Below, piece after piece: positions 382 through 19,201 of a DNA stretch of 20,390 nt. Under the pieces are notes generated by a model. It ran no database searches. It worked only from the letters and a program-made list of their open reading frames with translations, and was not told the DNA's origin. Position 1 is the first letter of the stretch. Each line of letters opens with the position of its first letter. The translations under genes were made by a program, and so were the position numbers. This stretch comes from a virus, in IMG/VR virus record IMGVR_UViG_3300042945_002165, positions 1-20,390 of that record, one strand, 5' to 3'.

Positions 382-505
382 ACACATTCCCTTCCTTCAA
401 AACATCAACGGAGACTTCTCGCCCGCGCTTCCTGTAGTAGGCGAGGATCTTGTTTGCCAATCGCTGGCTGTGGAATTTGCTACCAAGGTAGTCAGGAAAG
501 TCCAT
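317..505 (-). CDS. Small conserved phage protein, unknown function
   Basis: A 62-residue basic protein starting 14 bases inside the end of the polymerase gene, with AGAAGGA 8 bases before its ATG. The centre (residues 15-50) is a basic helix with KILAYYRKRG followed by alternating strands around VSVDVLKEGNVYVVRC. That is the helix-then-sheet pattern of small accessory proteins often seen in phages beside replication genes, but I cannot name a family. The unusually long 65-base overlap with the TSCPD gene is the main reason for doubt; the good ribosome site and protein-like composition argue for a real gene. No function is proposed. Confidence 0.6.
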   Translation of the reverse strand: MDFPDYLGSKFHSQRLANKILAYYRKRGREVSVDVLKEGNVYVVRCNFRFAPPTPQSARVYD

Positions 506-1880
506 CGGGGTTGTCCTTCTTGCGCTTCCCCCAGTTCATCCCAGTCTGGGACTCCCACGGGATCAGCATCTGCCTCTTCACCCCAAAGATGTCGGTGACC
601 TCAAGGGGATGCGTGAGGCATTCTACAATCTGGGGTAGGAGGAGGGCAACCTTATCTTGCTCCACTTGGCAAAAAGCTGCGTCATGAATGTTGTTGAGGA
701 TCTGGACTTCCGGCAACTTGCCATAGATTTCGAGGAGACCACGGGCTGTGAGATCCCCCACCGTGGATTGGGGCACGTAGGCAATGGCTGCCCTCAGCGT
801 CGCATCGTCGTGGGGGTTACCCCAAAAGTTACGCACCCTGCCAAAGGGGGTCACCAACCTATGCTTGGTCTGTATTTCCTGGAGGATCCAGGAGTGCCAC
901 TTCTTAATTTTGGAGAAGGTCTTGAAGTATAGCTTCTGGAATTCCTCGATGACCTTGATCTCAACTTTGAGGGTGATGGCGATGGTGCGGGCAGTACCAC
1001 CATAATTGCTGCCGTGGGCCGCCCTCTTGGCGATATCTCTGTAGGACATCTCCCGATAGTATTTGCGGTCAGCCAACTCCCTCTTCGGCTCAAAGCCAAA
1101 CACCATCGAGGCCACCATGGTGTGGACATCCCCCGACTCAACAGCCTTGATGTAGGTCTCATCACCCGCAAGGTAGCCGACGACTCTGGCCTCCGCCCCC
1201 TGCTGATCGCAATTTACAAAGATGTAGCCGGGGTCGGGGATGAACATGCGGCGGACAAAGTCATCGATATTCTGGAGGTTGCTGGCCCACCCATAAGGGT
1301 GGCTGCTGCTACTCCATCTGCCGGTATCCGTACCCCCAATGTTAAAGTTGGCATGCCACCTACCCTGAGGGGATAGCTGCTTTGTCACAGTATCCAGTGT
1401 CTTTGATAGGTCCCGCATCTGGAGGAGGGGGGTGGTGATGGGCATAGCCCTGGTATATTCCCGGTGGAGTTTCTCCAGGGTATCCCTATCCGTGGATACC
1501 TTCTTCTCTCCCTTCTTGGATACGATCACCTCCGGAAGGTACAACCTCTGGTAGAGCAACTCCTTGAGTTGGGTGTAACTACGGGGATTGTATGTCTTGC
1601 CCCACACCTTCTGGCAGATGTAGTTGAAGTTGTCCTCTACCTTCTTGAGGGAGGTCTCCAACTCCTTGGCAATGACATCTTTCTTCTGGGGATCAATGAG
1701 GATACCCTTGTCCATCATATCGATTGCCAGGGGGAGAAGGGATTTCTCAAACTCATAGGTGTTGTTTGGCTTCAAGACCCTGTAGATTTCCTGGGTCATC
1801 ATCCCATCCAGCCCATTGTAAACCATGTGCTGGAGGGTATCATCCATCGGGGGCAGCTTATCTGTGGTGATGGTTTTCAT
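492..1880 (-). CDS. Family A DNA polymerase, polymerase part (split gene)
   Basis: The 462-residue polymerase domain of a PolA-type replicative enzyme, which would copy phage DNA. Visible motifs: TGRW at 186-189, NLQN at 201-204, motif A with Asp225 (DQQGAEAR), motif B with Arg281, Lys285 and Tyr293 (KRAAHGSNYG), and motif C with His399-Asp400. Motif C reads HDA rather than the usual HDE, and motif A has QG where SQ is usual. The N-terminus begins only about 20 residues before YNGLD (21-25), which matches the ExoIII YxxxD motif of the 3'-5' exonuclease. The rest of that domain is in a separate protein encoded at 2550-3512, so the two must probably associate. Start at 1880 overlaps the preceding stop (ATGA). 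Family assignment is firm; the split is seen directly. Confidence 0.95.
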   Translation of the reverse strand: MKTITTDKLPPMDDTLQHMVYNGLDGMMTQEIYRVLKPNNTYEFEKSLLPLAIDMMDKGILIDPQKKDVIAKELETSLKKVEDNFNYICQKVWGKTYNPRSYTQLKELLYQRLYLPEVIVSKKGEKKVSTDRDTLEKLHREYTRAMPITTPLLQMRDLSKTLDTVTKQLSPQGRWHANFNIGGTDTGRWSSSSHPYGWASNLQNIDDFVRRMFIPDPGYIFVNCDQQGAEARVVGYLAGDETYIKAVESGDVHTMVASMVFGFEPKRELADRKYYREMSYRDIAKRAAHGSNYGGTARTIAITLKVEIKVIEEFQKLYFKTFSKIKKWHSWILQEIQTKHRLVTPFGRVRNFWGNPHDDATLRAAIAYVPQSTVGDLTARGLLEIYGKLPEVQILNNIHDAAFCQVEQDKVALLLPQIVECLTHPLEVTDIFGVKRQMLIPWESQTGMNWGKRKKDNPDGLS

Positions 1881-2077
1881 AGCTTGGCCTTCAGCCTTTC
1901 CAACTCATCAATGATACGCATGGCGTAGATGGTGAAGTCCTGCAACTCTTCTTGGGCGTGGGTCAACCACTGGTGGGTGGTGAGGTCTTCCCTCTCCATG
2001 GTGGTGCCATACTTCAAGAAGCCCCGCTTGGCTCTCTCCGTATAGGAGGCAATCACTTTCTGGGTATACTTGTCCAT
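1877..2077 (-). CDS. MazG-like small helical protein
   Basis: A 66-residue, mostly helical protein. The segment from residue 13 to 60 (ERAKRGFLKYGTTM, then HAQEELQDFTIYA and a final helix) resembles the metal-binding helices of MazG-like nucleotide pyrophosphohydrolases, in which an EExxD pattern (EELQD here) holds the metal. It is shorter than true MazG domains, so activity is unproven. A role in trimming the nucleotide pool would suit its position beside the polymerase and the dCMP deaminase. The ATG at 2077 has GGAGGA 4-5 bases before it. It overlaps its upstream neighbour by 25 bases and the polymerase start by 4. It is one of three genes that separate the two polymerase parts. Confidence 0.7.
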   Translation of the reverse strand: MDKYTQKVIASYTERAKRGFLKYGTTMEREDLTTHQWLTHAQEELQDFTIYAMRIIDELERLKAKL

Positions 2078-2235
2078 TGTTCCTCCAGCCCCTTCACCAA
2101 TTGTTTCAAGAGGGATAGGGTGTGGGTTTCGGATAGGGGGATCTTGTGGAAGCTACCATCCACCATCACGTTGAGGATGATGGTGTCCTCGCGGGTGAAG
2201 TAGGCGAGGTCAACCACCCCCAAACAACGCAGCAC
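2053..2235 (-). CDS. Small unknown protein between the polymerase halves
   Basis: A 60-residue protein with a predicted strand-rich first half (DTIILNVMVDGSFHKIPLS) and a C-terminal helix (LSLLKQLVKGLEEQ). The start is GTG at 2235; AGGA lies about 9 bases ahead and a stronger AAGGAGG about 15 ahead. It overlaps the gene before it by 26 bases and the MazG-like gene after it by 25, so it is probably translated by coupling. I do not recognise a family. Its place between the exonuclease and polymerase parts raises the possibility, purely inferred, that it works with the polymerase. Confidence 0.55.
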   Translation of the reverse strand: MLRCLGVVDLAYFTREDTIILNVMVDGSFHKIPLSETHTLSLLKQLVKGLEEQWTSIPRK

Positions 2236-2557
2236 GATTGATCGTCCTGCCCTCCTTGATCATGCGAGCCACAGTCTCCTTGAAGTAGTCGTAGTCATAC
2301 CCAAGGAAGAGGACGAAGTCTTTGATGTTGGTTGCCGATGAAGTGAAGATTGCAGTCCTTGCCTGATCCCGGATAACGGGGGTGACTTTGGGGGAGGTGG
2401 CATCCTCCACAGCCTGAACCACCACAGCCAGCATCAACTTCTCTTCGGGGCTGTATTCCTTGGGGGCCACGGGATCAACGTGAGCTTGGTAGGACATCTC
2501 ATCCCAGCCACCCAAGATGATGTTGTGGTTGGATTGGTACTCCCGCTTCTTACTCAT
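2210..2557 (-). CDS. Conserved phage protein, unknown function
   Basis: A 115-residue protein. After a polar N-terminus, residues 38-110 are helical: a segment EEKLMLAVVVQAVED, a linker with DQARTAIF, then FVLFLGYDYDYFKETVARMIKEG. The last part looks like a short helix-turn-helix-like tail (F..FLG.DYDYF...) that I have seen in general form in small phage proteins next to replication genes, but I cannot give a function. It starts inside the last codons of the exonuclease gene (8-base overlap), with AGGAACAAG as a modest ribosome site, so it is most likely coupled to it. Confidence 0.7.
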   Translation of the reverse strand: MSKKREYQSNHNIILGGWDEMSYQAHVDPVAPKEYSPEEKLMLAVVVQAVEDATSPKVTPVIRDQARTAIFTSSATNIKDFVLFLGYDYDYFKETVARMIKEGRTINRAALFGGG

Positions 2558-3512
2558 CTTTCTTGTTCCTGTCCTTCACCTTGCCCACCCTCAGAAGCTT
2601 CCACGATTTCTCGTTGCAGTAGATGCTGCCAAGGAAGCCCAGGGATTTGGGCCACTCGATCTCCACACTATGGGAGAGAAGCATGGTGTCATCAACAGGG
2701 TAGTTGATGGGGTAGCCTTCCCGCTTCAGGTAGGTTAAATCGTAGACGGCATTGTGGGCAATCTTGATTTTGGGGGAAGCCATGAGGGTGGCGATGGCTT
2801 GCTTCTTGGCGGGGGTAGCCTCACCAAAGGGTAGCACCAGGGGAAACACATAGACTTCATGGGGGGAGGTGGCAAAGCAAATCATGGTGATCTGCTGGTT
2901 TGCCGTCTCAATGTCGAAGGCGAAGGACTCTGCCTTCAGTATCTGCTGGGTAGCTTCCGCCACATCCTGATCATCCTCCACGATGTGGATGGTGCGTCGG
3001 GGAAAGGTGGATGTCTTCTTCTGGGATTCCTGCCACGCCTTCTTCAGATCCATGGCAACCACGGGGAGAAGGCTGTGGTCTTTTACGATTGACCTGGGGT
3101 GGTGGGTGGCAACGACCCTGATGTCATCGTCTGTGTAGAGGATGGTGCCTCGATGGTCAGATAGCTTCTCCCCTGTAAGGGACCAGAGGGACAGATCCCC
3201 CATAGCGAGAATGAAGTTGGCATCTCGGCACCTATCCCGCACCCTATTGTAATGCGGGACAAACTCCGACTTGAGATATCCAAGCTGCTTGCTGGTAGGA
3301 TTGCCGGCTGCTTCATCAGGTACTTCCTTCTTCTTGTGGAAGTAGTTGCTGGGATTTTCAAAGCGGGGTGGGTGGGGAAAGAGGGTGATGAATTCCACAG
3401 CCCCAAGATCTGCGTACTTTGCGGCAATCTTAAAAAGAGAAGCGGGGTATCCCGCAAGAGGGACCCCCGCCTTCATGGAATCTACGGATGGATAATCGAG
3501 GAGGATCAGCAT
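2550..3512 (-). CDS. UDG-like domain fused to 3'-5' exonuclease (polymerase N-terminal part)
   Basis: A 320-residue protein with two domains. Residues 1-160 resemble a family 4 uracil-DNA glycosylase-like fold (GVPLAGYPASLF at 16-27, ILAMGDLSLWSLTG at 101-114, THHP at 136-139), but the GEAPG motif is degenerate and the iron-sulphur cysteines are absent (FPHPP replaces KCRPP), so it is probably non-catalytic. Residues 190-307 are a DnaQ/PolA-type proofreading exonuclease: ExoI Asp200 and Glu202, ExoII Asp258 (NAVYD), then VDDTMLL and PKSLGFLGSIY. The protein ends before ExoIII; the missing YNGLD lies in the polymerase gene 670 bases downstream. UDG-like domains fused to phage family A polymerases are known, as far as I recall in SPO1-type enzymes. 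It overlaps its upstream neighbour by 7 bases. Confidence 0.85.
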   Translation of the reverse strand: MLILLDYPSVDSMKAGVPLAGYPASLFKIAAKYADLGAVEFITLFPHPPRFENPSNYFHKKKEVPDEAAGNPTSKQLGYLKSEFVPHYNRVRDRCRDANFILAMGDLSLWSLTGEKLSDHRGTILYTDDDIRVVATHHPRSIVKDHSLLPVVAMDLKKAWQESQKKTSTFPRRTIHIVEDDQDVAEATQQILKAESFAFDIETANQQITMICFATSPHEVYVFPLVLPFGEATPAKKQAIATLMASPKIKIAHNAVYDLTYLKREGYPINYPVDDTMLLSHSVEIEWPKSLGFLGSIYCNEKSWKLLRVGKVKDRNKKDE

Positions 3513-3868
3513 GGCACAGTCAGGTTGTATTTGGCTGCGACCACCCTCATTTTTTGCTTGAAGTCTTCCAAAGGAGTCTTGGAAACTGTCTTCACATCAT
3601 CATGTGCCTCTTGTAAGTCCATGAGGAACTCAAGCGAAAGACGGCAGAGATGCGAGGGAAGAAGTTCCTTGTTCGAAAGATCCTCAACGTCTTTTTTCTC
3701 CATTGCGGGGGTGTAATCTTTCTTTTCAATGAGGTGGCCTATGCCACACTTCATAAGTCTCTTTCCCTTCTGGATTCGATACACGCAAGTATCGTATTCA
3801 TCTCGGGAAATGCCACCCTGTTTGAGGACGCCGAGGTAGGCTTTGTTGAAGGCTTGCTGCGTATCCAT
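3506..3868 (-). CDS. Conserved phage protein with KCxIGxLI motif (copy 1)
   Basis: A 120-residue protein. Its core, CVYR...KCGIGHLIEKKDYTPAME at about residues 28-57, is a signature of small phage proteins of unknown function; the C-terminal half is helical (SLEFLMDLQEAHDDV and a last amphipathic helix). A second member of the same family is encoded at 15592-16002 with CMYR...KCAIGWLIADDRYSP. Two conserved cysteines and the glycine-rich turn suggest a compact fold, not a known enzyme. I chose the ATG at 3868 because GGAG lies 7 bases before it; a longer frame from 3913 would read through a strong hairpin at 3887-3918. It is the first gene after that hairpin. Confidence 0.75.
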   Translation of the reverse strand: MDTQQAFNKAYLGVLKQGGISRDEYDTCVYRIQKGKRLMKCGIGHLIEKKDYTPAMEKKDVEDLSNKELLPSHLCRLSLEFLMDLQEAHDDVKTVSKTPLEDFKQKMRVVAAKYNLTVPC

Positions 3869-3886
3869 GATTAGTCTCCAGGGGTT

Positions 3887-3918
3887 GCTGGGTGGGGCTA
3901 ACCCAATCCCCACCCAGC
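3887..3918 (-). other. Strong intergenic hairpin
   Basis: A perfect 11-bp inverted repeat (GCTGGGTGGGG / CCCCACCCAGC) with a 10-base loop fills the 59-base gap between the DUF669-like gene and the gene at 3506-3868. On the transcribed minus strand it is followed by AACCCC and not by a run of T, so it is not a classical intrinsic terminator. It ends about 12 bases before the GGAG ribosome site of the next gene. It could protect or punctuate the message, or lower expression of downstream genes. Confidence 0.7.
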
Positions 3919-3927
3919 GTTCCTACA

Positions 3928-4332
3928 TCAGGCTGCGATCCAGGAAGCGACGTTCATGTATTCCTTCCCGTCGCGGGACTTCTCAGCCTTGTAGTCGAAC
4001 TTCACATCGTAGCCGACGAGACCCTCGATGGCTTCCTTCGCCGGGATCTTGTCGTTGAGATCCGGGTCGATCTTCTTCAGCGCAGCCTTGCTGTATTTGG
4101 CAGCAGCGTCGGTGAAGTAGAGGCGGCTGCTGCGGAGGACGCGATTCAACTCGACGCCTTCCAGGTCCTGACCACTCAGGGCTTCGCGCGCCTTGAATTC
4201 CAGGACAGCAAAGGGCTTGTTGTCCTGCGTGACATCAAGCTTGTAGCCAGAGACGTAACCGAGGTAGCGCCCCGGCGGGATCTCGCGGATATCTTCAACG
4301 CCTTCAAGGGTCTTGTTCCAGAAATCAGTCAT
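3928..4332 (-). CDS. DUF669-like putative single-stranded DNA-binding protein
   Basis: A 134-residue protein. After DFWNKTLEGVEDIREIPPGRY it shows the PPGxYxGYVxG start typical of the DUF669 group of phage proteins, thought to be OB-fold ssDNA-binding proteins or recombinase partners. It then has strands with VTQDNKPFAVLEFKAR and ends in a conserved DGKEYMNVASWI strand. It follows the Sak4-like ATPase gene with a 17-base gap, and pairs of this kind commonly form a phage recombination or replication module. A start at 4332 is preferred: it has a purine-rich GAGAAGAGAATAGAG leader and removes an arginine-rich extension that would overlap the ATPase. Binding is inferred from family and context. 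Confidence 0.75.
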   Translation of the reverse strand: MTDFWNKTLEGVEDIREIPPGRYLGYVSGYKLDVTQDNKPFAVLEFKAREALSGQDLEGVELNRVLRSSRLYFTDAAAKYSKAALKKIDPDLNDKIPAKEAIEGLVGYDVKFDYKAEKSRDGKEYMNVASWIAA

Positions 4333-4349
4333 CTCTATTCTCTTCTCTT

Positions 4350-5105
4350 TCAGTTTTCGATCTGCTTGAAGACGGCACCCAGATCGAATGGTGCCTCTGC
4401 AACTACCCGATGGGGTGCGCTGCATTTCAGGTAACCCATATCACGGGTCGTCTGCGTTTGCAACACTGGCTTGCCGTCCTTGGCGCGGGTCGCAAGCCAG
4501 ACGTTGTTCATGTAGCGGGCAACAATGGTGGGGAGTTGCTGCCCGAGGAAACTGGGGAATGCCTTGACGATTCCGCCTGTCTTCTGGTTTTCGATAAGAC
4601 GGAGGTGGGCAATCAGCACCAGATGGAAATTGTATTTGTCACTGGTGAGGCGGGCAATCTGGTTTTCGAATCGCTTCCGCATAACGTCCCAGAGGCTGCG
4701 GTCGAAGCCGCTCTTATCGTCCACAATACCGTTTTCCTTGAGGACTTGAGACATGCAGACATCGTTCCAGAAGGTGGCGCTATCCACCACCAGCACCGTC
4801 TTGTTGTCCCAGCTTTCGAGGGGTCCGAGATTCTCATCGGGCAACTCCCACTTGGTGGTGACAGCAATGGATTTCTTCCAGGAGTCGGGATCCTTGGAGG
4901 CAATGCTGAAGTAGGAGATGTTGTCGGCCTTGTCTTCCTTGAGGTAGGCACTCAGGATCCCGAGGTTGTTGTCGAGATCAAGGATGCGGACCTTGTAATC
5001 CAGGTTGGCGAGGGTCGCCATAAGGCCGGTCTTGCCAGCCCCAGGATCTCCGAGAAGCAACAGCTTCACGCGCTTTTGGTTTGGGTGTTTCGAGAATACA
5101 GGCAT
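4350..5105 (-). CDS. Sak4-like / AAA_24 RecA-fold ATPase
   Basis: A 251-residue P-loop ATPase. Walker A is GDPGAGKT at 19-26, a RecA-like second strand follows (VRILDLDNN at 39-47), Walker B is TVLVVDS at 103-109 ending in Asp108, and a LVLIAH strand at about 163-168 carries a sensor-like His. Length and motif order match the phage AAA_24/Sak4 group, which promotes annealing or strand exchange together with an SSB partner. Here the following gene is the DUF669-like candidate SSB, and a Cas4-like nuclease lies upstream in the same array, which supports a recombination or replication role. The ATG at 5105 has GGAGA about 9 bases ahead and lies inside the end of the preceding small gene (40-base overlap). 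Confidence 0.85.
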   Translation of the reverse strand: MPVFSKHPNQKRVKLLLLGDPGAGKTGLMATLANLDYKVRILDLDNNLGILSAYLKEDKADNISYFSIASKDPDSWKKSIAVTTKWELPDENLGPLESWDNKTVLVVDSATFWNDVCMSQVLKENGIVDDKSGFDRSLWDVMRKRFENQIARLTSDKYNFHLVLIAHLRLIENQKTGGIVKAFPSFLGQQLPTIVARYMNNVWLATRAKDGKPVLQTQTTRDMGYLKCSAPHRVVAEAPFDLGAVFKQIEN

Positions 5106-10404: not shown

Positions 10405-11121
10405 TTAGGCGTAGGTGGTCTGGCTGGGGGTCGGATTGCTGGTTTCCGACAGAACCTTCAGCTTACAGACCCGCACCTTGGTATTCTTGTAGTCGATGGG
10501 GACGGAGACAACGTCGGCAGGATCCACCTCGCAGATGAGGGTGCGTTGCCCACCAAACTCCTTGAGGTATTCGTAGCTGCAAACGTGGAGACCGTGGCTG
10601 CACGTAGACTCGGGGTCATCATCGACAAGGCTGCGGTCCATGGTGTGGACAGAGCCGATGGTGTAGTGGTTACTGTTGCCGGTGTGGCAATCCCAGTAGT
10701 TGTCCTTCACCCTCTTGTAGAAGAGGAGATTGCCATCGGGGGTGATGGTGATCTTGTTGGTGGAGATGAAGCGCCACATCTGGTTGCGGCTACGCATCGA
10801 GGGGTTGGCAAGGAGGCGGCCAAGGAAGTTCATAAAGGGGGTAACGTCGAACCCCTGGCTACGCAACTCCAGGATGTGGGGGACGATGGCGTTGTCCAGC
10901 ACCTCACCCTTGTAGGTGATGGTGTTGCCAGAGATCACCAAGCCGGAAGCCCAGGAAGCCACCGCAGTAACGGGAGACATCAACTCAACGGCAGCATCCC
11001 AATTCCCGTTGCGGAGGTGGGTCTTGACCTCCTCGAAATTGGGGTGGGATCCATCGATGGTGATGGGTTGGTAATCCTTGAGGATGGTGACGGTGTCGTT
11101 GGTGATGAGGTAGGGATACAT
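10405..11121 (-). CDS. rIIB-like protein
   Basis: A 238-residue protein directly after an rIIA-like gene. Its second half has the features of phage rIIB-like proteins: MWRFISTNKITITPDGNLLF (about 117-136), YKRVKDNYWDCHTG, a long stretch with SVHTMDRSLVDDDPESTCSH, and GLHVCSYEYL, then CEVDPADVVSVP and a KVRVCKLKVL end. In T4 the rIIA/rIIB pair is membrane-associated and lets the phage withstand superinfection exclusion by a resident prophage; whether this protein does the same is inferred. The start at 11121 has AAAGGA about 8 bases ahead and follows the rIIA stop with one base between (TGA-T-ATG). Confidence 0.8.
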   Translation of the reverse strand: MYPYLITNDTVTILKDYQPITIDGSHPNFEEVKTHLRNGNWDAAVELMSPVTAVASWASGLVISGNTITYKGEVLDNAIVPHILELRSQGFDVTPFMNFLGRLLANPSMRSRNQMWRFISTNKITITPDGNLLFYKRVKDNYWDCHTGNSNHYTIGSVHTMDRSLVDDDPESTCSHGLHVCSYEYLKEFGGQRTLICEVDPADVVSVPIDYKNTKVRVCKLKVLSETSNPTPSQTTYA

Positions 11122-11122
11122 A

Positions 11123-12928
11123 TCAGATTCCTTTCAGGATGAGGTTGATGAGTTGAGAGTAGCAGGGAGAAGTTGTGGTGCCAGAATGATGCTCGACATG
11201 CTTGAGCATAGGGAAGTTGTGTAGTACCTGTTGAAGTCTGGTGTTCCACTGGGTGCTGGGTCTGGTGAAGAGAGGCTGAAATATCTGAGGCACAAAGACC
11301 AGATTGGGGACGGGAGGAAGAAGCCCCTTGGTGGAGAGGATCTCGATGAGGTTACGATACCTTGCCACTCCGTAAGAAGACCAATCTGCACCGCATGCTG
11401 CGGCATCCTCCCCCTTCTCAGCATCCCATGCGGCGAAGGCTGCCATATGGATCGGCGTCAAGTCAATGAGATTCTTCAGCTTGCCCTTGAAATCGTGAGG
11501 CAACACGTAGATGGGGAAGTCATAGAATTCTTGGAGATTGCACAACATGTTGTGGTCGATGTCAAGGTGGCACCACTTCATGTCGGAATCCAACTTGATG
11601 TAGTGGTTTGCTGTTTCGGTGGCGGGCACAAACTTGTTGCGCTTACTCAAGGTACGGTACTTGATTGCCCGTTTGCTTTTGATGATGGGCATATCAGAAA
11701 GCTTGACGTAGGGAATGTTAGCTTCCGTAACTTCGGAATCGTCGGGTACGATGATGACATGAGGATTGCCCCGGATCGAGGCGGGCACTATGGGGTTAGC
11801 AATCACGTATTGTTGGATGCGCTTTGAGGCACCCTTCAAATCCTGGTCAGCTACTAACACCAAAGAGAAACTATCCCATATCCTGTTAGGATAGGGCAGC
11901 ATAGACCACCCACTCTTCTTCTTCATGGTATGATAGGATATACCATGAGAAGACTTAAGATTGATACCAACGTGGGTATAGTTAATGTTACCACGTTGGT
12001 AGTTGGAGACGAATGGGTTGTCGTTGAGAAACTTGACGATCTCGACGGGATCAGTCATCCGATCCAGAATTAACGTGACTTGATTTCGGTATACCTTGAT
12101 GGCGTTTTCGTAGTCTTCCTTCAACGCATCTATGGTGTGTCGGTTGTATACGATCTCCTCACGGGAAGCGGTGACTTCGATCTCACCGATACCATACTTC
12201 AAGATGATAGGATGCTGTGCCGTGGTGCCCAGTTTGTAGGTGTCGAGGGGGTAGAGGACTGGACCCACCAATACTCCCGGTTTGTTGTTATCCTTGGAGC
12301 TAAGGATCATCGTGAGGTAGTCATCGTAGACAATCTCGGGGTCCGAGATCTCTTCACCGTCGATGATAGGACGAGGCTTGAAGAAGCGGATCTGCGTCAA
12401 TGCTTCCCGAAACTTGTACCCATCAGAAGAGGGAATGCAGATCTTCAACCCCGTTTCCGTGGTGGGTTTGCTGGAGATCTCATTGAGGGTGGGGATACCA
12501 TCACCCGCAATCGATGCGATGTAGGTAGTCTCGGTGCCGTTGTTGTAGGAGGTGATGGTGAAGGAGTGGACCAAGGCGAAGGGGGACTTGGCACCCAACC
12601 CAAAGCCACCGATCTGGCTGTTGTCGCTACGCTTGGAAGACTCACCGAAATGGCAGAACACATCAACCATCTGGTTGCGGGACAAGCCCGGCCCGAAATC
12701 CCTAATAGTGAATTGGGGATCCAGGTAATTGGGAATGGTGATTTGCATGGGGGTATGGGGGCAAGCGTCCAGTGCGTTGGATGCCAACTCCCTGACGATG
12801 GATGCCACAGGATTACTGTAAAGGCGGGAAGTCAACGCCTTGATCATGATCCCATTGGTGGAGATCTTGAAGTCACAGACCTTGTTGAAGCCTGATCCCT
12901 CATGGGTATTCTGGATATCGATGAGCAT
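11123..12928 (-). CDS. rIIA-like GHKL ATPase
   Basis: A 601-residue protein with an N-terminal GHKL (Hsp90/MutL-type) ATP-binding fold: N-box VRELASNALDA (Glu47, Asn51, Asp54), G1 box RDFGPGLS (Asp77, Gly79, Gly81) and G2 box GGFGLGAKSPF (107-117). Residues 130-330 contain the transducer-like region (PIILKYGIGEIEVTASREEI). The long C-terminal part is not recognised. Together with the following rIIB-like gene this matches the rIIA/rIIB pair of T4 and other large phages. The ATG at 12928 lies 3 bases after the stop of an 18-residue membrane peptide; the ribosome site (GTGAGATAACC) is weak, so coupling may matter. Confidence 0.85.
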   Translation of the reverse strand: MLIDIQNTHEGSGFNKVCDFKISTNGIMIKALTSRLYSNPVASIVRELASNALDACPHTPMQITIPNYLDPQFTIRDFGPGLSRNQMVDVFCHFGESSKRSDNSQIGGFGLGAKSPFALVHSFTITSYNNGTETTYIASIAGDGIPTLNEISSKPTTETGLKICIPSSDGYKFREALTQIRFFKPRPIIDGEEISDPEIVYDDYLTMILSSKDNNKPGVLVGPVLYPLDTYKLGTTAQHPIILKYGIGEIEVTASREEIVYNRHTIDALKEDYENAIKVYRNQVTLILDRMTDPVEIVKFLNDNPFVSNYQRGNINYTHVGINLKSSHGISYHTMKKKSGWSMLPYPNRIWDSFSLVLVADQDLKGASKRIQQYVIANPIVPASIRGNPHVIIVPDDSEVTEANIPYVKLSDMPIIKSKRAIKYRTLSKRNKFVPATETANHYIKLDSDMKWCHLDIDHNMLCNLQEFYDFPIYVLPHDFKGKLKNLIDLTPIHMAAFAAWDAEKGEDAAACGADWSSYGVARYRNLIEILSTKGLLPPVPNLVFVPQIFQPLFTRPSTQWNTRLQQVLHNFPMLKHVEHHSGTTTSPCYSQLINLILKGI

Positions 12929-13692: not shown

Positions 13693-14421
13693 TCAGATTA
13701 CGAAACCAGAAGTGTCGGCCTTCGCTTTTGCACCCTTGGGAGAGAGGCCAACGATGACTCCCTTGGGATCCAGGAAACGGAGATCGTGAAGATCACCGTC
13801 AATTACGGGGTATCCCCAATAGGTTTGGGGTTTGTTGCGGAATACCGCAGCGACGTTGAAGCCGAGACGCAATGCCTCAAGGCATTCAGCTTTGTTGCGT
13901 TCGCTGCGGGAGAATGTGAGGTGGTAGTTGGCTGGCAACTTGCGGCGCAGCTTGTTAAGATTCTTGGTGTAGTCCATGAATTGCATGTGGGGAAAGACAT
14001 CCATCAAGGAGGATTGATATACACCACTGGGGAAGGATACCCGGATCCTGTCCCATGCGATATCATCACCACCACCCATCCGAATTACAGGTTTCAAGTT
14101 AAGGTTGGATGCCTGGATACCTACTTTGTGGATGGATTTGACAACGTCCATCATGTATTCATCGCGGTATCTCATAAAGCGACGGGTTTTCTGGATGCGG
14201 GATTCCCTGACGCTGTTGGTGGTTAATCCCTTGGCGATGATGGCAGCATGGCCGGAATACATGGCGAGGCACAATTCCTTGCAGCCTGGGGAGGCATAGG
14301 CACACATATTGCCTACACCGGCAACCTCATGGGGTGCCATGTAGTGGATGGCATTAAGGTAGCCCATCACTACAGCCTTGGATGCCTTGGCATTATCGAT
14401 AGAGAAGATGCGGTTTTGCAT
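13693..14421 (-). CDS. GP88-like phage protein
   Basis: A 242-residue protein with the hallmarks of the phage 'gene product 88' family: an N-terminal Cys cluster (GNMCAYASPGCKELCLAMYS, about residues 37-56), a central PVIRMGGGDDIAWDRIRV region (about 111-128), MQFMDYTKNLNKL, YHLTFSRSERNK, and the end VIDGDLHDLRFLDPKGVIVG with a final DTSGFVI. The conserved Cys, Asp and Arg residues suggest an enzyme, perhaps metal-dependent, but no activity is established for the family to my knowledge. GGAGGA stands 5 bases before the ATG. Length fits the family. Confidence 0.85.
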   Translation of the reverse strand: MQNRIFSIDNAKASKAVVMGYLNAIHYMAPHEVAGVGNMCAYASPGCKELCLAMYSGHAAIIAKGLTTNSVRESRIQKTRRFMRYRDEYMMDVVKSIHKVGIQASNLNLKPVIRMGGGDDIAWDRIRVSFPSGVYQSSLMDVFPHMQFMDYTKNLNKLRRKLPANYHLTFSRSERNKAECLEALRLGFNVAAVFRNKPQTYWGYPVIDGDLHDLRFLDPKGVIVGLSPKGAKAKADTSGFVI

Positions 14422-17710: not shown

Positions 17711-17815
17711 GTGTTGGGTTGGTGGTTGGTACCATAGACACAAATTTTCAAAATTTTGGGCTTCACGTTGCTTCCCCTACATGATAAACTTTCCCAAACC
17801 TCAGGAATCCCCAAA

Positions 17816-18238
17816 ATGTCCCAAAAACTCCTTCAATCCCTCCTCGATGACACCATCGCCCTCTCCCTAAAGACCCTCCACTTCCACTGGGTCGTCACCG
17901 GACCCCACTTTTCGGCCCTCCACGACCTCTTCAACACCCAATACAAAGCCCTTTCCGAATCCGCCGACCACATTGCCGAGAGAATGCGGTCCCTTTCCCT
18001 CACCCCAACCCCCTTCACCTCCCTCGACGCCACCTTCTCCATCGACCCCACCCCCAAAAAGACACCCAAAGACACCCAAATCCTGGAAATCCTGGCCCTC
18101 GACCACGAAAAGCTGGCCCTCTTCTCCTCCGAAGCCTCCCAGGAAACCACCACCGATCCCGCCACCAGCAACCTCTTCGCCGAAAAACAGGAATACCACT
18201 CCAAAGCCGCGTGGTTCCTCCGCAGCCACCTCCAATAA
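17816..18238 (+). CDS. dps: Dps-family ferritin-like protein
   Basis: A 140-residue protein of the Dps/ferritin-like family, which forms 12-subunit cages that oxidise and store iron and shield DNA from oxidative damage. The signature helices are present: LKTLHFHWVVTGPHFSALHD (residues 18-37) and ADHIAERM (50-57). By alignment with E. coli Dps, the ferroxidase ligands correspond to His24, His36, Asp51 and Glu55, while the usual Asp/Glu at position 40 is Asn, so iron oxidation may be weakened. It is a little shorter than typical (about 150-170 residues). AGGA lies 9 bases before the ATG. Codons end mostly in C, unlike the leftward array, suggesting transfer. It is followed 15 bases later by gmd. 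Confidence 0.9.
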   Translation: MSQKLLQSLLDDTIALSLKTLHFHWVVTGPHFSALHDLFNTQYKALSESADHIAERMRSLSLTPTPFTSLDATFSIDPTPKKTPKDTQILEILALDHEKLALFSSEASQETTTDPATSNLFAEKQEYHSKAAWFLRSHLQ

Positions 18239-18253
18239 CCCCAGGAAACCCCC

Positions 18254-19201
18254 ATGCGCGCCCTCATCACTGGCATCACCGGCCAAGATGGCTCCTATCT
18301 CGCCAACTTCCTCCTCTCCAAAAACTACCAAGTCCACGGTCTCATCCGCAGCCACTCCCCCAACCTCAAAAACCTCCAATTCTTCAACCTTGATTCCCGC
18401 ATCACCTTCCACCAAGGCGACCTCACCAACGCCTCCGACATAACCCGCATAGTCTCCATGGGCTTCGACGAAATCTACAACCTCGGTGCCCAATCCTTCG
18501 TCGGTTCCTCCTGGCAAAACCCCACAGCCACCTCCCAAGTCAACGCACTAGGCCCCCTTCACCTCCTTGAAGCCATCCACCAACACAGCCCCCGCACCAA
18601 ATTCTACCAAGCCAGCACCTCCGAAATGTTCGGCAACAGCAGCGCACCCCAAAACGAATCCACCCCCTTCCAACCCCGCAGCCCCTACGGTGTAGCCAAA
18701 CTTTTCGGCCACCACATCACCCGCAACTACCGCGAATCCTACAACCTCCACGCCTCCAGCGGCATCCTCTTCAACCACGAATCCCCCCTGCGTGGCCCCC
18801 AATTCGTCACACGCAAAATCACCCTCGGCATCGCCGCCATCCTCAACGGCAAACTCAAGAAAATCTCCCTCGGCAACCTCGACGCAAAGCGCGACTGGGG
18901 TTTCGCCGGAGACTACGTAAAAGCCATGTGGCTAATGCTCCAGCAACCCAACCCCGACGACTACGTCGTCTCGACAGGCCAAACCCACAGCATCCGCGAC
19001 TTCCTCTTCCACGCTTTTGACCGCGTGGGCCTCCGCTGGGAAGACCACGTAGTCTTCGACCCCACCCTCTTACGTCCCGCCGAAGTCAACATCCTCCAAG
19101 GCGACCCCACCAAAATTTCAAATTTGGGGTGGGAACCCGAAACCTCCTTCACCCAACTCATCCACAAGATGGTGGATTGGGATTGCCACCGCTTGCGCTA
19201 A
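18254..19201 (+). CDS. gmd: GDP-mannose 4,6-dehydratase
   Basis: A 315-residue short-chain dehydratase (extended SDR) that turns GDP-D-mannose into GDP-4-keto-6-deoxymannose, the precursor of fucose, rhamnose and related sugars of surface polysaccharides. Motifs: NADP-binding GITGQDGSYL (residues 7-16), the STSEMFG segment with the catalytic Thr/Glu, YGVAK with the catalytic Tyr and Lys, FNHESPLRG, FVTRKIT, GNLDAKRDWGFAGDYVKAMW and the C-terminal LGWEPETSF. It is slightly shorter than usual (about 320-350). One change, NHESPLRG for NHESPRRG, is noted. AGGAAA lies 8 bases before the ATG. C-ending codons match dps. A phage might use it to alter the host surface and block competitors; this is inferred. 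Confidence 0.95.
   Translation: MRALITGITGQDGSYLANFLLSKNYQVHGLIRSHSPNLKNLQFFNLDSRITFHQGDLTNASDITRIVSMGFDEIYNLGAQSFVGSSWQNPTATSQVNALGPLHLLEAIHQHSPRTKFYQASTSEMFGNSSAPQNESTPFQPRSPYGVAKLFGHHITRNYRESYNLHASSGILFNHESPLRGPQFVTRKITLGIAAILNGKLKKISLGNLDAKRDWGFAGDYVKAMWLMLQQPNPDDYVVSTGQTHSIRDFLFHAFDRVGLRWEDHVVFDPTLLRPAEVNILQGDPTKISNLGWEPETSFTQLIHKMVDWDCHRLR

Follow-up and report, generated by a model that had tools for sequence, protein, structure and literature searches.

The polymerase locus and the place of the cut

The window, meaning the whole 20,390-nucleotide (nt) stretch of IMG/VR virus record IMGVR_UViG_3300042945_002165 that was analysed, carries a family-A DNA polymerase whose parts are encoded by two separate genes on the minus strand. 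In the order of transcription these are an open reading frame (ORF) of 320 amino acids (exo), three overlapping small ORFs, and an ORF of 462 amino acids (pol), and the genes are tightly packed, with an overlap of 8 nt between the exo gene and small gene 1 and an ATGA overlap between small gene 3 and the pol gene. Using Pfam, DNA_pol_A_exo1 was detected in the 320-amino-acid protein (1.4e-7), covering only positions 2-112 of the 173 in the profile, and DNA_pol_A in the 462-amino-acid protein (2.1e-45). The latter has the features of a family-A polymerase, with the Asp of motif A, the Lys and Tyr of motif B and the His-Asp of motif C, while the N-terminal half of the 320-amino-acid protein is UDG-like, matching UdgX and type-4 UDG in both sequence and fold.

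Table 1. Features of the split polymerase locus in the window
Feature	Coordinates	Strand	Basis or description
UDG-exo protein, 320 amino acids	2550-3512	-	UDG-like domain (~residues 1-165) and 3'-5' exonuclease without ExoIII
UDG-like domain (type-4 UDG / UdgX fold)	3018-3512	-	sequence and fold comparison
ExoI, D200 and E202 (Klenow D355/E357)	2907-2915	-	D200 codon 2913-2915, E202 codon 2907-2909
ExoII, D258 (Klenow D424)	2739-2741	-	codon read
Conserved C-terminal tail of exo protein, LRVGKVKDRNKKDE region	2553-2594	-	lies past the aligned part of the chain; disorder predicted for its final 10 residues
Small gene 1 between the halves, 115 amino acids	2210-2557	-	counterparts in close relatives; no match in Pfam and PHROG searches
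Small gene 2 between the halves, 60 amino acids	2053-2235	-	counterparts in close relatives
Small gene 3 between the halves, 66 amino acids	1877-2077	-	matches to several PHROG families without an assigned function
Family-A DNA polymerase protein, 462 amino acids	492-1880	-	polymerase domain and last helix of the exonuclease domain
New N-terminal head of pol protein, 20 amino acids preceding ExoIII	1821-1880	-	most members of the clade show M[KR][IV][IV]xT
ExoIII YNGLD, Y21 and D25 (Klenow Y497/D501)	1806-1820	-	Y21 codon 1818-1820, D25 codon 1806-1808

An earlier reading of the window from its letters alone (the sequence-only reading) had proposed that the first protein carries ExoI and ExoII but ends before ExoIII, that the polymerase begins just before a YNGLD motif which is the absent YxxxD, and that the four acidic residues of one exonuclease site consequently come from two polypeptides with three small genes between them. 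The ORFs, codons, Pfam matches and alignment all agree with this. In a hidden Markov model (HMM) built only from intact proteins, namely 17 UDG-exo-pol relatives (15 from IMG/VR together with Mel-JY34 and MW202489), the exo chain spans states 14-339, with the ExoI Asp at 225 and the ExoII Asp at 291, and the pol chain spans states 357-768, being first aligned on the Tyr of YNCKD, with no overlap between the two. Y21 and D25 of pol fall on the ExoIII Tyr and Asp columns (states 357 and 361), placing YNGLD on ExoIII and not elsewhere, and a complete ExoIII is absent from the first protein by Pfam, alignment and HMM. Likewise, in PHROG 17, which comprises intact phage polymerases, positions 555-790 are matched by the exo protein and 808-1239 by the pol protein, and in G005 (the record of locus L202) the Pfam exonuclease model is matched at positions 7-130 in the exo frame and separately at 150-173 in the pol frame. 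The Klenow equivalents D355, E357, D424, Y497 and D501 were assigned from the ExoI/ExoII alignment, with residue roles taken from the literature (PMC9629493).

The full set of family-A 3'-5' exonuclease motifs (DxE of ExoI, Asp of ExoII and YxxxD of ExoIII) is present, spread over two polypeptides. This is neither a single-chain PHROG 17 polymerase, as there are two ORFs with a stop and intervening genes, nor a standalone PolA-type exonuclease subunit of the kind seen in ExnV1 and PHROG 192, as the exo chain stops before ExoIII and matches PHROG 192 only at an E value of 0.057. Like split phage enzymes of the gp43A/B and NrdA-a/b type, it instead has two chains homologous to one ancestral chain, which would probably co-assemble as well. 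The UDG-like domain of the window has no Pfam UDG match, while those of two relatives, Caulobacter phage Kuura and locus L233, match PF03167. As regards the active-site residues and Fe-S cysteines of family 4 UDGs, the window copy reads DYPS at the place of GEAxG in relatives, and its first 90 residues contain no cysteine.

Conservation, spread and origin of the split

D200, E202, N254 and D258 are invariant in 138/138 exo proteins, and Y21 and D25 are invariant in 122/122 complete pol proteins, against a mean column conservation of ~60% in the same alignments. The polymerase catalytic residues D225, K285, H399 and D400 are likewise present in all 122 pol proteins, with Y293 in 118 of them. 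Residues that are invariant on one chain and have a known role in a site of the other are the strongest computational argument that the two chains assemble.

To examine how widespread the split is, IMG/VR was scanned with both proteins and with alignments, each relative's locus was classified by reading frame and duplicates were removed. At least ~148 distinct phage junctions have their cut here, between ExoII and ExoIII, and among the matches listed every relative of ~27-100% identity that holds both halves is split there, single-chain intact polymerases being more distant than the split relatives. The group consists mostly of uncultured phages, with one isolate, Kuura, which has the same split in the genes Kuura_029 and Kuura_026 but differs from the window in having two other small genes in its gap. 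Its assembly was verified by restriction digest, and its authors identified the polymerase only and annotated the exo gene as 'hypothetical' (PMC9959647). Judged by best matches, no other split at the same site was present among 50,697 phage records. No relative came up when 84,980 bacterial and archaeal genomes were scanned with the pol alignment, which gives no prophage or host link.

A maximum-likelihood tree was calculated on the polymerase part, using 67 rows that included 44 split representatives. The split forms made up one clade with a single change of state (support 92/90, and present in 94% of bootstrap trees), and there was no re-fusion among the 44 split representatives. Three long branches (L215, L217 and L219), all of them intact, were uncertainly placed. 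On this tree the cut arose once, long ago, and was retained. This fits the earlier view that the arrangement is settled and is neither a fresh break nor an intron, and Rfam likewise gave no match in the window or in its region 1700-2800 at E<=1. The sequence-only reading was thus supported in every element that could be tested computationally; beyond it, the split marks a whole clade, and extra conserved sequence is present at both new ends.

The length and content of the DNA between the halves vary among junctions, from an overlap (such as ATGA or TAATG, the lowest gap value being -5 nt) to a gap of 1,254 nt, with 34 junctions leaving no room for any gene. In relatives near the window the gap holds small genes, while elsewhere it holds unrelated ones, including thyX between the polymerase halves at L096:1905-2588 and L107:4047-4730 (Thy1 4.6e-41 for L096) and HNH_3 genes at L131, L141 and L278, which are three of the loci with the largest gaps. 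Because both gap length and gene content vary, the locus is best described as an old break with a gap where genes come and go. An origin of the break through a homing endonuclease is possible; in the window itself there is no homing endonuclease at the break.

Proposed reassembly and alternative explanations

In intact relatives there are ~17 residues between the WK after ExoII and ExoIII (for example WKDEGKEWDAKTGEDQLWSYNCKD). The split exo chain extends ~10-15 residues further, to a conserved C-terminus of the form T-I-K-[RK]-[DE]-[DE] or D-R-N-K-K-D-E, and the split pol chain has ~20 residues ahead of ExoIII, mostly starting M-[KR]-[IV]-[IV]-x-T. The tail Lys at -4 is conserved at 96-100%, and surrounding codons vary synonymously (AGG/CGN for Arg and ACN for Thr). 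A possible downstream start overlaps or touches the exo stop in 127/148 junctions, and the tail is retained in all six loci in which the next start lies >30 nt away, as TIK in five and TTK in one. The synonymous codons and these far-start loci together rule out a downstream Shine-Dalgarno sequence as the sole cause of tail conservation. The tail may serve in docking, or in contact with DNA or another protein, and the conserved tail and head may stabilise or regulate the joint.

Structure predictions were made using AlphaFold. The window exo chain alone gave a predicted local distance difference test (pLDDT) score of 93, with only residues 311-320 below 50, and ended before the ExoIII helix. 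The exo-TAA-pol sequence of locus L233 was folded as a natural tethered pair, with the TAA read as Gln and an alignment that included natural fusions and intact relatives, and gave a Klenow fold with a pLDDT of 94.1 and a predicted template modelling score of 0.90, in which ExoIII (residues 360-364) lies on a helix (353-378) contributed by the pol half. With Foldseek, the top matches to this model were Klenow and Bst fragments, over ~630-660 columns and with target TM-scores of 0.74-0.79. The model shows that the halves are compatible with one Klenow-like body, which is compatibility, not association, of the free chains.

We consider it probable, at roughly 0.87, that one ancestral chain was split and that the two resulting chains reassemble around a composite exonuclease site. 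The ancestor would have been a single-chain UDG-exo-pol family-A phage polymerase, and a single break would have fallen in the loop between the post-ExoII helix and the ExoIII-bearing helix. Since then the two chains would have been separate products of one operon that reassemble into a Klenow-like enzyme. In its exonuclease site the UDG-exo chain would provide D200, E202 and D258 and the pol chain Y21 and D25, and proofreading would be possible only in the assembled enzyme. There was one polA per phage in 16/16 records (a second match, where listed, lay within the same open frame) and no PF00929 (DnaQ-type) exonuclease in these 16 phage records, of which Kuura is complete at 43.8 kb and most others are 48-61 kb. 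Because of this, the split enzyme is probably both the sole replicative polymerase and the sole proofreader of these phages.

Several points weigh against this reading. Binding of the chains, the composite active site and exonuclease activity are what we infer from the predictions and alignments above, and the AlphaFold pair was tethered via a read-through stop, with an alignment of four such fusions and nine intact relatives. Contrary to expectation, the L233 tail was still disordered in the fused model (326-336 below 50). Furthermore, most of the records that were searched for a second exonuclease lack certification as complete.

Among the alternatives, the UDG-exo chain could be self-sufficient, acting as a nuclease or in uracil processing and supplying the third acid itself, for example in the C-terminal K[RKA][DE][DE], leaving YNGLD of pol with a structural role only. 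The strong conservation and acidic end of the tail would fit this, and ExnV1, a family-A exonuclease in isolation, is stable and soluble (PMC9629493), but we consider it unlikely: the tail acids at -1 and -2 vary and are not invariant individually, whereas Y21 and D25 of pol are, the tail is predicted to be disordered, and ExnV1 holds a complete site including the D501 equivalent (PMC9629493). Less likely again is that proofreading was lost and both remnants were retained for structure or for the UDG domain; the UDG and polymerase functions could be under independent selection, but invariance of the four acids, the ExoIII Tyr and the ExoII Asn over deep divergence would be unexpected for a dead site.

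Rejoining of the halves into one chain at the RNA or protein level, by an intron, a trans-splicing intein, a frameshift or a ribosome hop, has some precedent in the introns of family-A phage polymerases elsewhere and in apparent inteins at another site in this clade (L014, L018 and L107). At five loci (L233 at 3998-4003, L234, L282, L285 and L333) the exo stop TAA is also followed directly and in frame by the pol start, and any stop readthrough there would yield a fused polymerase. As a general explanation it is nonetheless highly improbable, because in the window the exo frame carries nine stops before the pol start and there is no Rfam match, because neither the exo C-terminus nor the pol N-terminus shows intein sequence, and because the gap elsewhere holds unrelated genes (ThyX, HNH and others) or is absent. 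A splicing mechanism common to all junctions is untenable with cargo so variable and unrelated, and exo and pol stand in all three frame relations among the junctions, which rules out programmed frameshifting or readthrough as a general joiner. An assembly or sequencing artefact might be suspected in a metagenomic virus record, but its probability is negligible, since independent records hold the same junction: the 3,021 bp stretch recurs in three further metagenome contigs (0, 0 and 5 mismatches), and these contigs, the at least ~148 distinct relatives and the isolate Kuura show the cut to be neither assembly error nor chance.

Building on the reassembly of two chains, we suggest only tentatively, and with considerable doubt, that this is a natural two-subunit polymerase whose fidelity is set by subunit association. 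The UDG-exo chain would dock onto the polymerase and thereby complete the exonuclease site, with the new exo TIK[RK][DE][DE] and pol MKIIxT ends dedicated to docking or regulation and also touching DNA or a third protein of the replisome. The phage could then run its polymerase either with proofreading and uracil recognition or without them.

Related systems and further observations

Proofreading polymerases normally keep the whole exonuclease site on one chain, which is either fused to the polymerase (Pol I, T7 and T4) or separate (DnaQ and ExnV1), while in these phages two chains appear to contribute to a single metal-binding site. The direct homologues are single-chain PHROG 17 polymerases (e.g. 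Microcystis phage Mel-JY34, MW202489), which have the same domains in the same order but differ in being one polypeptide, with ~17 residues joining WK to YNxxD and no tail or head extensions. In the split polymerase of Methanothermobacter the break reportedly affects the polymerase part. This enzyme (Kelman 1999, cited in PMC3984812) is likewise a natural fission of a proofreading polymerase, but it is a B-type enzyme and archaeal. The phage replicative polymerase is also in two chains in Aeromonas phage 25 and 44RR, as gp43A and gp43B, and the halves of phage 25 co-purify with polymerase activity (PMC2988022); these differ in being family B, in the site of the break and in having a Seg endonuclease or untranslated spacer there. 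In phage Aeh1, NrdA is split by mobE and, although cut in a critical region, reassembles with normal activity (PMC2988022), but this is another enzyme and a homing-endonuclease insertion. Other split phage polymerases include the PolB of MIJ3, which has a split intein (PMC6892783), and the PolIII core of jumbo phages (PMC7824862). ExnV1 (PDB 7r0t) is a separate chain with the same exonuclease fold as the exo protein, but its set of catalytic residues is complete and includes the counterpart of D501 (PMC9629493). In open-access full text we found no known family-A enzyme split between ExoII and ExoIII.

Two further cases involve family-A phage polymerases broken elsewhere. The OM43 phages MEP401 and MEP402 have a polymerase encoded by two ORFs with a small one between them, but with the break within the polymerase domain and the exonuclease whole, and the authors suspect an intron (PMC10580990). 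In MW202554 (ctLwi270; locus L003), a Manatee Spring phage genome, UDG-exo and pol are likewise in two neighbouring genes, at 1727-4364, and this natural split lies just after ExoIII; it was rejected as an instance of the same split, since its exo chain includes YNCLD and so leaves the exonuclease site whole. Breaks inside the polymerase domain were also seen in L002 (MF497422; 3956-7090), with a gene between the parts, and in the polymerase genes of L377, L381, L382 and L383.

The enzyme is one that the phage depends on, and its split form has been stable for long enough that members have diverged to ~27% identity. The split accounts for a gene that currently carries only the label 'hypothetical protein', and proofreading in these phages will be overlooked by searches for exonuclease domains that are confined to polymerase genes. 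Adding or withholding one subunit would provide a natural on/off test of what proofreading requires, and the isolate Kuura makes the arrangement directly testable.

Within the polymerase domain, in-frame insertions (~294 and 156 amino acids) are present in the O-helix motif at L014:7441-9708, L018:5276-7543 and L107:5001-6854; their ends are intein-like (HG/CLT...VTGN/SNYGG) and the shorter one resembles a mini-intein, with no match to a Pfam intein model. Residue 289 of pol (window 1014-1016), equivalent to E. coli Phe762, is apparently His in 122/122 split polymerases and in several intact relatives, while Phe, Tyr and Leu are the residues usually discussed at this position in phage PolA. 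Elsewhere in the window there are adjoining rIIA-like and rIIB-like genes at 10405-12928 on the minus strand (PHROG RIIA 2.8e-75 and RIIB 4.1e-63), a Gp88-like protein at 13693-14421 on the same strand (PF17338, 9.4e-35), and, on the opposite strand at 17756-19201, a Dps/ferritin-like gene and a GDP-mannose 4,6-dehydratase-like gene.

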